A stretch of 51,318 nucleotides of DNA, taken from NCBI GenBank assembly GCA_030613505.1, contig JAUWLW010000020.1:1-51318 (forward strand). The letters run 5' to 3'. The notes under the pieces are model-generated. The model was not told where the DNA came from, searched no databases, and worked only from the letters and a program-made list of their open reading frames with translations. Within the stretch, counting starts at the first letter, position 1. Each line of letters opens with the position of its first letter. A program made the translations under genes and the position numbers. Below are positions 12,610 through 50,636 of the stretch, in pieces. The stretch is from Candidatus Zixiibacteriota bacterium. Lineage in GTDB: Bacteria; RBG-13-66-14; B26-G2; WVWN01.

Positions 12610-12789
12610 CTTGAGTCCCTCCTTATTTTTACGAGGATCACTTTAGCTTTCGAATAATAATAGCCCTTTTCGAGGCCGTGGCCAATTATGGCGTCCTAGT
12701 TTCGTCGACCGCCGGCGGCGGTTCTATCCGGGGAGCGCGAATATTCGGACGCCCGCCGATGAGGGGGGCTAAGCGGTAGTAACGTCCGG

Positions 12790-14160
12790 TTATCTAACTA
12801 TTACCATTTTACGTGCGGCCGTCCTCGAGCCGGCGTCGAGGCGGTAGACGTAGACTCCCGGGGCAAGATGAACGTGGAACGCTAGGTCGTGGCGGCCGGC
12901 GGCGAAATAACCCTCGGCGACGGCCGCGACCTTCCGGCCTGCGGCGTCAAATAAGCCGAGCGTTATGTTGGCTCCCTCCGGTAGCTCGAAAGAGAACGTC
13001 GTAGCGCCTGCGACCGGGTTGGGAACGTTCTGGAAGAGGGTAAAGGTCCCCGGCTTAGCGTCGCCCGGGTGGCGGTCGGCGGGCGGCCTCGGGCCGACGC
13101 CCAACGTGGGTTCGTAACGCGCCCACCGCAAGACTTTCCCGCTGGCGGCGTAGAAGACGATCTGCGGGTTGTCGCTGTTGCCGATGGCCATAACGTGCGC
13201 CATGCCGGTGAAGTTGGTATTCGTTATTCGTTTGTGCGTCCATTTCGTTCCGGTTTTCTTCACCACGTGAAGTTTCAGGGTGTCGAAGTTATAGTAGGAG
13301 ATGAACACGTCGCCGGCCGGCGTCACGCAGATCTGCGTGAACGCGGGGGAGCCTTTCGCGTTGGCCACTTCCTCCGTGGTCCACTCTTCGCCGTCGTACA
13401 CGGCGTAAACGAGGGCCGTGTTGTTGGTTTTGGCGAAACTTACGTGGATCTTACCGTCGGGGGTTAGGTAGGCGTCGCAATCCGTCCCTTCGGCTACCTT
13501 TTCGAACTCCCACGCGTCGCCGTTCAGCATGGCGTGCATTATGGCTTGTTCGTCGTAGTCGAGGTATATTGCGTGCGGCACTTGCCCGTAGTCGACGATG
13601 AGCGTGTTGAACCCACCTTTGGAGCCGCCGGTAGTTACGTTTTCCGCGGCCCAGGTAGTGCCTTCTTTGACAGCATATTTTAAATTCACGGCCATTGCGG
13701 ACGGTCGGTCATAAGTAACGCAGGCGTACCCGGTGGGCCATTGGCCGAAGGACATGTGGTTCCCCAAGACGCTGCCGTTATCAATTGTTTCTTTAACCCA
13801 ATTCTGTCCGACATCTTTGTAGACGTAGATTAATTTTCCTTCTTCCTGGTCGTGGTACATCACGTACGGCCTGTCGTAAACGTCTAGCGTTACGGCCGTG
13901 CTGTCGCTGGACGTTACGTCCACCGCTACGGTTTCATAATGCCATTGTTCGTCCTTCCGGGTGGCGTACGTTACCCAGTCTTTGCGTTGAGTTTGGTCGA
14001 GGAACGTGACGTGGGGATTGCCCTTGTTATCGATTTCGATGCAGCAGGCTTTGCCGCATTCTTTAGGGGTGATTTTCTCGATGACCCAGCCGTCTCCCCA
14101 GGCCGTCGCCGCCGTTACGAGCCATACCGTCATAACTACGGGTAAGCATTTCGCCTTCAT
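12790..14160 (-). CDS. Secreted beta-propeller protein with type A-like C-terminal domain (paralogue 2)
   Basis: This 456-residue protein has a signal peptide (MKAKCLPVVMTVWLVTAATAWG) and the same W/E/V propeller pattern as its neighbours (NPHVTFLDQTQRKDWVTYA, VFISYYNFDTLKLHVVKK). A short linker (GPRPPADRHPGDAKPGTF) leads to the C-terminal module with NVPNPVAGATTF, AAGRKVAAV and GVYVYRLDAG. That module is nearly identical in DNA to paralogue 1, whereas the propeller has diverged. AAGGAGGGCGG precedes the ATG. It has its own promoter, so the three paralogues are probably separate transcription units. It is likely exported and surface-bound or released. Confidence 0.8.
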   Translation of the reverse strand: MKAKCLPVVMTVWLVTAATAWGDGWVIEKITPKECGKACCIEIDNKGNPHVTFLDQTQRKDWVTYATRKDEQWHYETVAVDVTSSDSTAVTLDVYDRPYVMYHDQEEGKLIYVYKDVGQNWVKETIDNGSVLGNHMSFGQWPTGYACVTYDRPSAMAVNLKYAVKEGTTWAAENVTTGGSKGGFNTLIVDYGQVPHAIYLDYDEQAIMHAMLNGDAWEFEKVAEGTDCDAYLTPDGKIHVSFAKTNNTALVYAVYDGEEWTTEEVANAKGSPAFTQICVTPAGDVFISYYNFDTLKLHVVKKTGTKWTHKRITNTNFTGMAHVMAIGNSDNPQIVFYAASGKVLRWARYEPTLGVGPRPPADRHPGDAKPGTFTLFQNVPNPVAGATTFSFELPEGANITLGLFDAAGRKVAAVAEGYFAAGRHDLAFHVHLAPGVYVYRLDAGSRTAARKMVIVR

Positions 14161-18377: not shown

Positions 18378-18475
18378 CTACCTAAATCGACCTAAAGAGT
18401 GGGGCGCATTTGATGCCGGCTTTTCCCGGTTCGCCCAGAACCGGTTCCGGCCGGCGCGCCCGGTAACTCCCTAGA

Positions 18476-20038
<1,563 letters not shown>

Positions 20039-23237: not shown

Positions 23238-23990
23238 TTAGTTAAACAGCGCTTTCACGCGACCCAGCGACGTCGGCGAAACAGCGACGCTGTACTTCTT
23301 GGCGCCGATGTCCTTGCTGCCCTCGCCCGCGCCGCGGCAGGGCGAACTCTCCGACAGGTAGAAGTTATTCTTGTCATAGCCGACGAAGAGGGGGTCGGCA
23401 TGGATCTCGCCGGTCCCCGGTGACGGGTAGAACACACGCCACGAACCGCCACCTCAACCCGGGCACCAGTACATGTAGTTTCCGCCCTTGTTGTTGTCCA
23501 CGTCGTTGTAGAGGATGTTCGTGGTGCCGGTGTATTCGTGCTTGGCGATGCCGTAGGTAGCGTTGCCCCAGATGATGTTGTTCTTGATCGTGGCCGTTGA
23601 ATATTCCCAAACGCGGACGCCGGCGATGCCGTTGCTCTTACAAATAGTGTTGCCGTCGATAGTGCCGCTGGCGCCGTTTGTGATGTTTATGGCGCCGTAG
23701 TAGCCGGCTTCAATGAGGCAGCAACTGGAGATGTCGAGTTGCGTTCCGCTGCCACCGGCTTGGACGTTGCCGCCGTCGAGGTCGACGAGGGCACCGTTCC
23801 CGCGTATGCAGGACTTCTTTCCTATCATGACGCCACAGCCGCCGGTGTACGTCTCCTTCGGGTCGAGAATTAGGAGCTTGTCGTAGCCCTCTCCCGGGCC
23901 GGCCTTGTCGTAGGCGATTTGTAGTTTGACGCCATATGCGGCCGCGGCGGCGATAAGAAAGCAAACCGTAACGATTAGCAGTTTCTTCAA
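23238..23990 (-). CDS. Secreted right-handed beta-helix protein with SLGRVKALFN tail, interrupted by one in-frame UGA
   Basis: The TTG start at 23988-23990 is preceded by GGAGGTG and opens a signal peptide (MKKLLIVTVCFLIAAAAAYG). Repeats of a parallel beta-helix follow (GSGTQLDISSCCLIEAG, TIKNNIIWGNATYGI). After YMYWCPG the frame meets TGA (23454-23456), then continues in the same frame: GGGSWRVFYPSPGTGEIHAD, DPLFVGYDKNNFYLSESSP, ending with the tail PTSLGRVKALFN. The part behind the UGA is the usual ending of such beta-helix proteins (DPLF, SPCxGAG, DIGA), so both halves belong together. The codon gives C-P-G-U if read as Sec, or was TGG/TGC before mutation. An 8-bp stem begins at the next base. 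Total 250 codons including the UGA. Confidence 0.7.
23419..23453 (-). promoter_or_regulatory. Hairpin immediately after the in-frame UGA (bSECIS-like candidate)
   Basis: In the mRNA GGTGGCGG, directly after the UGA, pairs with CCGTCACC over 8 bp (one G-U) with a 19-nt loop. Position is compatible with bacterial SECIS elements, but the large loop is not typical. It may equally be a chance hairpin in Gly-rich coding sequence. Confidence 0.25.
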
Positions 23991-24013
23991 GTTCTCACCT
24001 CCTCCTTTTTCTC

Positions 24014-34259: not shown

Positions 34260-34335
34260 GGGCCTATAGCTCAGCTGTGGTTAGAGCGCGCGCCTGATAA
34301 GCGCGAGGTCACAGGTTCGACTCCTGTTAGGCCCA
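34260..34335 (+). tRNA. tRNA-Ile (anticodon GAT)
   Basis: A full cloverleaf is present: acceptor GGGCCTA/TAGGCCC, D-arm AGCTCAG, anticodon loop CTGATAA with GAT, and T-arm ACAGG-TTCGACT-CCTGT. CCA is not encoded. It has its own promoter and terminator, and is not in an rRNA operon, where tRNA-Ile is often found. Confidence 0.97.
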
Positions 34336-38518: not shown

Positions 38519-39469
38519 ATGCGCGGCGCAGTGATATTTGTAATAATGTGTATCGCCGCGGCGGCGTACGCCACGGGCGGCGGCGCCTGGGTCGGCGATA
38601 CCTGGGGCGGCAGGATGGTCAAGCTCTCGCCGAGCGGTTCTATCGTGCGGACAGTGGGGCCTTTCGTTTACCCGTACGGCGTCGCCGTTGACCCCAACGA
38701 CGGTAGCGTTTGGTTCACCGTGAACGCGCAGACCGTCGTGAAGATGACGGCCGAGGGTCAAGAGTTCTTCCGCCGGAGCTACAATACCGAGCAGATATCG
38801 GTGAACCCGGGCGACGGGGCGTGCTGGATCCGCCTTCATAACCCCCGCGGCGTCGCCCGGCTGGATAAAAACGGGACCGAGACGGCCAACGTGCCGTTGG
38901 GGCGGGCGAACTGGGTGTCTTCCGCCGCCGCCGACGGAACGTGCTGGGTGACGGACGGGACGGCAGGGGTATTGCTAAGGGTCACGACCGCCGGTTCGGT
39001 TATCTCGTCGTTCGGCGGCTTCAGCTCGCCCGGCGGGTGCGCCGCCCACGCCAAGGATAACTCCGTGTCCGTCGTCGAGAGCGGCAACGTCGTCCGGGTG
39101 AGCACCGCGGGGAGCGTCGTCTTCCGGACGCCGCTGGCGAGCGGCTTCTGCGTCGACGTAAACCATTCCGACGACTCGAGCTGGGTCGGCGCCGGGAACG
39201 CTCTTTACAAACTGAACGGCGGCGGCTCGATCGTGAATACGATCGGCGCGGGCGGCATGGTAAACGTCGTCACGGTCAACAGTGGCGACGGTTCCGCGTG
39301 GGTCGCCATTTACGACCTGAACTCGATCGCGAAGTACACGTCGACGGGATCGATGGTCTTTCTCCTTCCCGGTTTCAACAAGGTTAAAGGGATGGCCGCC
39401 GAGCAGGAGCCCGCTTACCCCGGCGTAGCGCCCGCGAGTATGGGAAAAGTTAAAGCGCTATTCCGCTAA
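38519..39469 (+). CDS. Secreted NHL-like propeller protein with SMGKVKALFR tail
   Basis: This 316-residue protein has a short signal peptide (MRGAVIFVIMCIAAAAYA). The body has repeats of the NHL/streptogramin-lyase kind: GVAVDPNDGSVWFTVN, VNPGDGACWIRLHN, AADGTCWVTDGTAG, VNSGDGSAWVAIYD. After VAPASMGKVKALFR it ends directly. The tail matches those of the genes at 16101 and 23238. GAGGAGG precedes the ATG. This is the one intact full-length gene of the tail group in the window. The next gene starts 17 nt later and may be co-transcribed. The ligand is unknown. Confidence 0.82.
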   Translation: MRGAVIFVIMCIAAAAYATGGGAWVGDTWGGRMVKLSPSGSIVRTVGPFVYPYGVAVDPNDGSVWFTVNAQTVVKMTAEGQEFFRRSYNTEQISVNPGDGACWIRLHNPRGVARLDKNGTETANVPLGRANWVSSAAADGTCWVTDGTAGVLLRVTTAGSVISSFGGFSSPGGCAAHAKDNSVSVVESGNVVRVSTAGSVVFRTPLASGFCVDVNHSDDSSWVGAGNALYKLNGGGSIVNTIGAGGMVNVVTVNSGDGSAWVAIYDLNSIAKYTSTGSMVFLLPGFNKVKGMAAEQEPAYPGVAPASMGKVKALFR

Positions 39470-50538: not shown

Positions 50539-50636
50539 GGGGGCGGAGCTGCTACTGGTGGGCAGGCCGGACTTCAAATCCGTGCGGCGGCACTAACCCT
50601 GTCGCCGGTGGGTTCGATTCCCACCCGCTCCCCCCA
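50539..50636 (+). tRNA. selC: tRNA-Sec (anticodon TCA)
   Basis: This ~98-nt RNA has the marks of bacterial tRNA-Sec: an 8-bp acceptor stem (GGGGGCGG with CCGCTCCC, one G-U), a 5-bp T-stem (GTGGG-TTCGATT-CCCAC), so an 8+5 design, a long variable arm (GGCGGCA/TGTCGCC), and anticodon loop CTTCAAA. The discriminator would be C, which is unusual, with CCA possibly encoded. An 8-bp hairpin without a T-run follows (50644-50664). No good promoter is seen directly upstream, so it may be expressed from the sulfatase-fold gene's transcript. No selA, selB or selD is in the window. Confidence 0.93.

Follow-up and report, generated by a model that had tools for sequence, protein, structure and literature searches.

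A UGA codon that interrupts a gene in the 51,318-nucleotide stretch of DNA analysed here, referred to below as the window, is very likely read as selenocysteine (Sec). Sec insertion is inferred, no selenium having been detected, and the identity of the residue rests on conservation of the UGA, coding selection, the Sel genes and established knowledge of the Sel pathway. The gene belongs to a family of 13 genes in six genomes. Five of these genomes, with 12 of the genes, are from the window's phylum, which we take to be Coatesbacteria from a matching public record, and the remaining gene is from another phylum (genome G021). We consider it likely that these genes make up a new Sec-only family of exported beta-helix selenoproteins, with the reservation that export, like Sec insertion, is inferred. 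In the mechanism that we propose, the UGA at codon 179 would be decoded as Sec by SelB and tRNA-Sec, with a hairpin just downstream of the UGA directing the insertion. The product would be an exported right-handed parallel beta-helix protein from a multi-copy family, in which a loop at the helix's C-terminal end would carry Sec as part of a C-x-G-U pair, inferred to serve most likely as an extracytoplasmic selenenylsulfide/thiol redox or soft-metal site.

The gene and its predicted product

The proposed coding sequence occupies 23241..23990 on the minus strand (250 codons). It is opened by a TTG at 23990, which lies behind a Shine-Dalgarno sequence, AAGGAGGAGG (23998..24007, minus strand; sequence read), and is closed in the same frame by a TAA at 23238-23240. 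Other family genes checked by reading the sequence have AAGGAGG in the corresponding upstream region. The recoded UGA (23454..23456, minus strand), the proposed Sec codon, stands in the context YMYWCPG-UGA-GGGSW and is followed by 71 in-frame residues, the last of which form a C-terminal tail, SLGRVKALFN (23241..23270, minus strand), that is also found in unrelated proteins of the genome with predicted secretion. An earlier note on the window, made from the sequence alone, had described a signal peptide, a helix, a TGA at 23454-23456 and an ending in the same frame, all of which held when the sequence was read. Eight main open reading frames of the window terminate in TGA, and the frame continues past it for 71 codons here and for 0-32 codons in the other seven. 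Since TGA is an ordinary stop for those seven, a genome-wide code with UGA as Trp was ruled out. When the window was scanned for motifs of the Cys/Sec type, the selenoprotein candidate was the sole convincing match.

The protein is predicted to begin with a signal peptide of about residues 1-20 (23931..23990, minus strand; KKLLIVTVCFLIAAAAAYG), modelled as a helix at residues 3-17, and the N-termini of the homologues are hydrophobic; export is inferred. A right-handed parallel beta-helix domain is predicted for about residues 21-180 (23451..23930, minus strand) by Pfam, an AlphaFold model and VIA-align. Pfam Beta_helix (PF13229) matches the window protein with an E-value of 2e-6 and 28 bits against a cut-off of 25.9, and the model, a right-handed parallel beta-helix with a mean pLDDT of 74, is mostly above 85 for residues 21-190 and low after residue 192. 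VIA-align gave Z of about 12-16 to beta-helix chains over about 150-175 residues at 7-18% identity. Foldseek alone returned no E-value under 0.001, and the fold assignment, a model prediction, rests on VIA-align and Pfam. In the model, Cys176 ends a strand and Sec179 lies in the following loop, at the C-terminal end of the helix. The window protein scores 22.8 bits against NosD (PF05048), under the cut-off of 23.6, and TIGR04247 matches seven of the 13 members weakly (best E 6e-4); the weak NosD match arises because beta-helix repeats are shared. The neighbours of family genes that we read were a gene without a Pfam match, a sulfatase, ATP synthase-like genes or selB, with no nos context.

By eye, family genes at loci L074, L075, L077 and L079 (four genomes) occur singly or in tandem runs of up to three, with ATP synthase-like genes and conserved membrane-protein or uvrC-like genes next to them. 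Around the relative in G021 (L089, 6776-10895), several proteins have C-terminal sorting tails like its own, and a sulfatase-like gene lies next to it; the window gene likewise neighbours a sulfatase.

Conservation of the UGA across the family

When the window's own genome was searched, another contig yielded three further relatives of full length; one in-frame TGA is present in each, giving four paralogues with this codon in a single genome. Across the 14 genomes of the window's phylum that were searched, 12 family genes were found in five genomes, and exactly one TGA is present in each of the 12. A DNA pattern that allows UGA or a Cys codon was run over 132 genomes from the phylum to which a Zixibacteriota record belongs and was matched once, in G021 and with UGA; this member reads NYMKYCEGUGGGS within a longer protein with a T9SS sorting domain at its end. 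The G021 contig carrying it is just 11 kb, and misbinning is conceivable given this size, though its neighbours have the same sorting tail. Exactly one in-frame TGA, aligned at C-x-G-U, is thus shown for 13/13 family genes: it occupies the same column in all 12 codon-aligned genes and is also present in the G021 member (L088). The motif of the window protein is C-P-G-U, from Cys176 to Sec179 (23454..23465, minus strand), and Cys176, Gly178 and UGA179 are invariant in the 13 members, as are Cys61 and Cys218. CPGU is found in nine of the 12 phylum genes and CVGU, CEGU or CSGU in the rest, and identity to the window protein across the family is 43-82%. None of the 13 genes has TGG, TGC, TAA or TAG at the Sec codon position. 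The selenoprotein candidacy put forward in the earlier note is therefore supported, the homologues showing a conserved UGA and not Trp or random residues.

A scan of genome contigs yielded one close relative (L008, in Candidatus Coatesbacteria bin961, a public record that one of the five genomes matches), which is the same protein as L018, and otherwise generic beta-helix proteins; viral contigs and phage records that were searched gave no homologue. No Cys-form member was present among the profile hits, in what was a narrow survey, and a pattern search with TGC/TGT allowed in 132 + 4 + 8 = 144 genomes of three other groups had a sole match, which has UGA. Distant UGA-free relatives keep the framework YNDVxxNxxGxY...PGTGEIxxDPLF...SPCxDAG and lack the C-x-G-U loop entirely, and the Cys-Sec pair therefore seems to have been added to a surface scaffold, not derived from a Cys site by conversion to Sec.

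Coding selection was analysed in a codon alignment of the 12 phylum genes, which did not include L088. Averaged over all pairs, pN was 0.30 and pS 0.68 before the UGA (ratio 0.44), and pN was 0.24 and pS 0.65 after it (ratio 0.37), showing that purifying selection downstream of the UGA is as strong as upstream. None of the 12 aligned genes contains a second in-frame stop, and length differences near the UGA are single whole codons only. With synonymous divergence near saturation, some copies would be expected to show TGG, TAA or TAG by now if the UGA were free of constraint.

Selenocysteine machinery

The genes for Sec decoding are shown to be present in the window's genome. The earlier note had pointed to a tRNA-Sec gene in the same window, and this was confirmed by ARAGORN and Rfam at 50539..50636 on the plus strand, with the anticodon TCA needed for decoding UGA. 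The genome also has all three of the genes that the note had proposed to look for: selA (TIGR00474, 403 bits) and selB (319 bits), both above cut-off, and selD, which itself contains one in-frame TGA. One in-frame TGA is present in selD (TIGR00476) in 13/13 genomes of the phylum with a hit over the cut-off, and selD served as a positive control for Sec decoding.

In G003, selB, an ornithine aminotransferase gene and then two family genes follow one another on one strand. This genome (89% complete) has selA, selB and a UGA-containing selD, and no tRNA-Sec reaching the Rfam cut-off was found in it, the best match being a tRNA-Leu. A tRNA-Sec called by ARAGORN beside selA in G003 was rejected; it lies within an apparent protein-coding region and is without an Rfam match. 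No SelB over the cut-off was found in the small genome G021. The succession of selB and an ornithine aminotransferase gene occurs both in the window's genome (G000, contig C63, L007) and in G003 (L076), a pairing that is conserved and unexplained.

A hairpin downstream of the UGA

Most members of the family can form a 4-7 bp stem that opens on the GG of the Trp184 codon, or right next to it, and closes on the CC of Pro189, about 14-29 nt past the UGA (about 18 nt), with a loop that begins mostly with AG or G. Examples are GGTAC-AGTTTC-GTACC, GGAAC-AGTTTT-GTTCC, GGGAG-AGTTT-CTCCC and GGAAG-GTTTT-CTTCC, and the residues encoded inside the hairpin vary in step with the pairing. Pairing was kept in 86.7% of cells compared to 72.1% after shuffling, with a covariation score of 0.315 versus 0.119 (0/500 shuffles). 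The summed stem length was 70 versus 53 +/- 4.6 under synonymous recoding (P 3e-4; half-swaps 18/2000), a test that was devised after the sequences were seen and has to be discounted accordingly. The free energy of the whole hairpin gave no signal relative to synonymous recodings (mean z -0.16), and a scan that applied the published bSECIS rules did not reach significance (P 0.26). The RNAalifold consensus of the 45-nt region was weak (-2.3 kcal/mol), because registers differ among members. Published bSECIS constraints are a loop of 3-9 nt with a G within its first two positions, an upper stem of 4-16 bp, a spacing of 16-37 nt and an MFE <= -7.5 (PMC13188914), and many family members fit this geometry. 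The selD of the window's genome has a hairpin of similar layout, with the loop AGGCGC about 19 nt past its UGA.

The candidate bSECIS of the window copy (23419..23453, minus strand) deviates from the family. Its outer stem, GGTGGCGG/CCGTCACC, consists of 8 bp with one G-U, encloses a 19-nt loop and is present when the first 42 nt are folded to minimum energy, and four further pairs (GTGG/CTAC) can form within that loop. The inner loop, CGTGTGTT, has 8 nt and starts with CG, and the spacing of 15 nt is one below the published range. The window copy has Arg-Val-Phe-Tyr where others have Tyr-Ser-Phe-Val, and it lacks the canonical upper stem of the family, having an off-register version only. This canonical stem is present in L020 (genome G006), which is syntenic with the window gene, 82% identical to it and flanked by similar neighbours. 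The 8-bp pairing with its 19-nt loop, claimed in the earlier note, held as a structure of the window copy. What the family conserves, though, is not this outer stem: it is a smaller covarying hairpin inside it, and no member departs further from the canonical form of that hairpin than the window copy. The bSECIS part of the claim was thus borne out only in part, as a family hairpin of bSECIS geometry covaries, the window copy deviates and the energy tests are negative. It is possible, as an inference from the atypical hairpin, that the UGA of the window copy is decoded less efficiently.

Alternative explanations

The alternative that survives best accepts Sec and assigns it a structural or metal-binding role, the C-x-G-U forming a soft-metal site and not taking part in thiol redox chemistry. 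No known oxidoreductase relative of the beta-helix scaffold emerged in the searches made, the signal peptides suggest export, Cys61 and Cys218 are invariant as well, and there is the weak NosD match. Against it, redox patterns of the C-x-x-U type are common among selenoproteins (PMC13188914), and the NosD match reflects shared repeats and stays under the Pfam cut-off for the window protein. We lean against this alternative, which does not exclude our preferred explanation, as the latter covers both roles.

A second alternative has UGA read as Trp or suppressed by a leaky near-cognate tRNA, giving a minor extended product. In its favour, the codon analysis shows only translation and selection downstream of the UGA and not which residue is inserted, and the bSECIS of the window copy is atypical. 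TGG, however, never substitutes despite near-saturated synonymous sites, TAA and TAG are never seen, the partner Cys at C-x-G-U is invariant, and Sec genes are present and in G003 adjoin family genes. We regard such readthrough as very unlikely.

The same holds for a true stop, with a short secreted beta-helix ending at the UGA and the remainder separately initiated or decaying. Most of the helix does precede the UGA and the pLDDT is low after residue 192, but the frame is intact in 13/13 genes with indels of whole codons only, and purifying selection persists. Reading the sequences revealed no conserved start codon or ribosome site downstream of the UGA, and UGA-free distant homologues continue through the same framework (YNDVxxNxxGxY...PGTGEIxxDPLF).

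A sequencing error or point nonsense mutation from TGG to TGA in a single gene, the objection raised in the earlier note, can account by one base change for the window copy alone and is excluded by the same TGA in 13 genes from six independently assembled genomes, including four paralogues in the window's genome, with TGG in none.

Relation to known proteins

The reading of UGA as Sec has points against it: there is no experiment, no Cys homologue was found, the hairpin of the window copy is atypical, the energy tests are negative, tRNA-Sec was not recovered in G003 and SelB was under the cut-off in G021. Cys homologues exist for almost all selenoproteins (PMC12013277). Catalogued CxxU selenoproteins (e.g. 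SelW-like, AhpD-like and the FCYXU TonB-dependent receptor) share the Cys-adjacent UGA, the Sel genes and a hairpin after the UGA with the present family, which differs from them (119 families/subfamilies, PMC13188914) in its beta-helix domain, not named there, and in the absence of a detected Cys homologue. A thioredoxin-like fold is shared by the majority of characterised selenoproteins (PMC13188914). No beta-helix is named among the 119 families catalogued in 2026 (PMC13188914), and the selenoprotein models of NCBIfam release 20 match none of the 13 family proteins. The open-licence literature that we searched contained no beta-helix selenoprotein and nothing joining Coatesbacteria with selenocysteine, and earlier notice elsewhere is not excluded.

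Beta-helix surface proteins of Zixibacteria and other lineages (PF13229, PF05048, TIGR03804) have the same fold, framework, SPC motif and export, including the YNDV...PGTGEI..DPLF...SPC.DAG ending, but the ordinary members seen are without a C-x-G-U loop or in-frame UGA. SelD of the same genomes (TIGR00476) also has one in-frame TGA, followed in G000 by a hairpin whose loop starts with AG about 19 nt after it, but is a cytoplasmic selenophosphate synthetase and unrelated. Pectate and alginate lyases, epimerases and phage tailspikes are alike in fold alone, and the sequence relationship is too weak to transfer function.

For the family as a Sec-containing protein, the likeliest role, inferred solely from the C-x-G-U pattern, is that of an extracytoplasmic redox or soft-metal site, and the redox role on its own could as well be wrong as right. 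A bolder reading, on which we are evenly divided, is that this is an undescribed Sec-only family of exported beta-helix proteins, present in at least two phyla, in which the C-x-G-U loop and its own bSECIS would have arisen on an ordinary surface scaffold with no Cys intermediate, placing a selenium redox or metal site outside the cytoplasm in several tandem copies. If true, a multi-copy exported beta-helix selenoprotein would bring selenium biology another fold and perhaps another compartment. The family also illustrates what present finders may overlook: homology-based methods lean on Cys homologues (PMC12013277) and none were found here, and consequently every one of these genes looks truncated, with a product of about 178 residues. 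Sec is costly, and why a surface protein keeps it is a question that can be tested directly at this site.

Other features of the window and related loci

Members of the selenoprotein family and unrelated proteins with predicted secretion have in common the C-terminal motif P[TAS]S[LFMIV]Gx[VIL]K, directly before the stop. This tail occurs in the window at 39431-39469 (plus strand) and 23241-23276 (minus strand), in L074 at 12711-12749 and 13476-13514, and in L076 at about 12706, and possibly represents a sorting or anchoring signal of the window's phylum. The 16S rRNA gene of the window (18475-20037, minus strand) is solitary, with tRNA-Ile/tRNA-Ala at 34260 and 37396 (plus strand), some 14-17 kb off.
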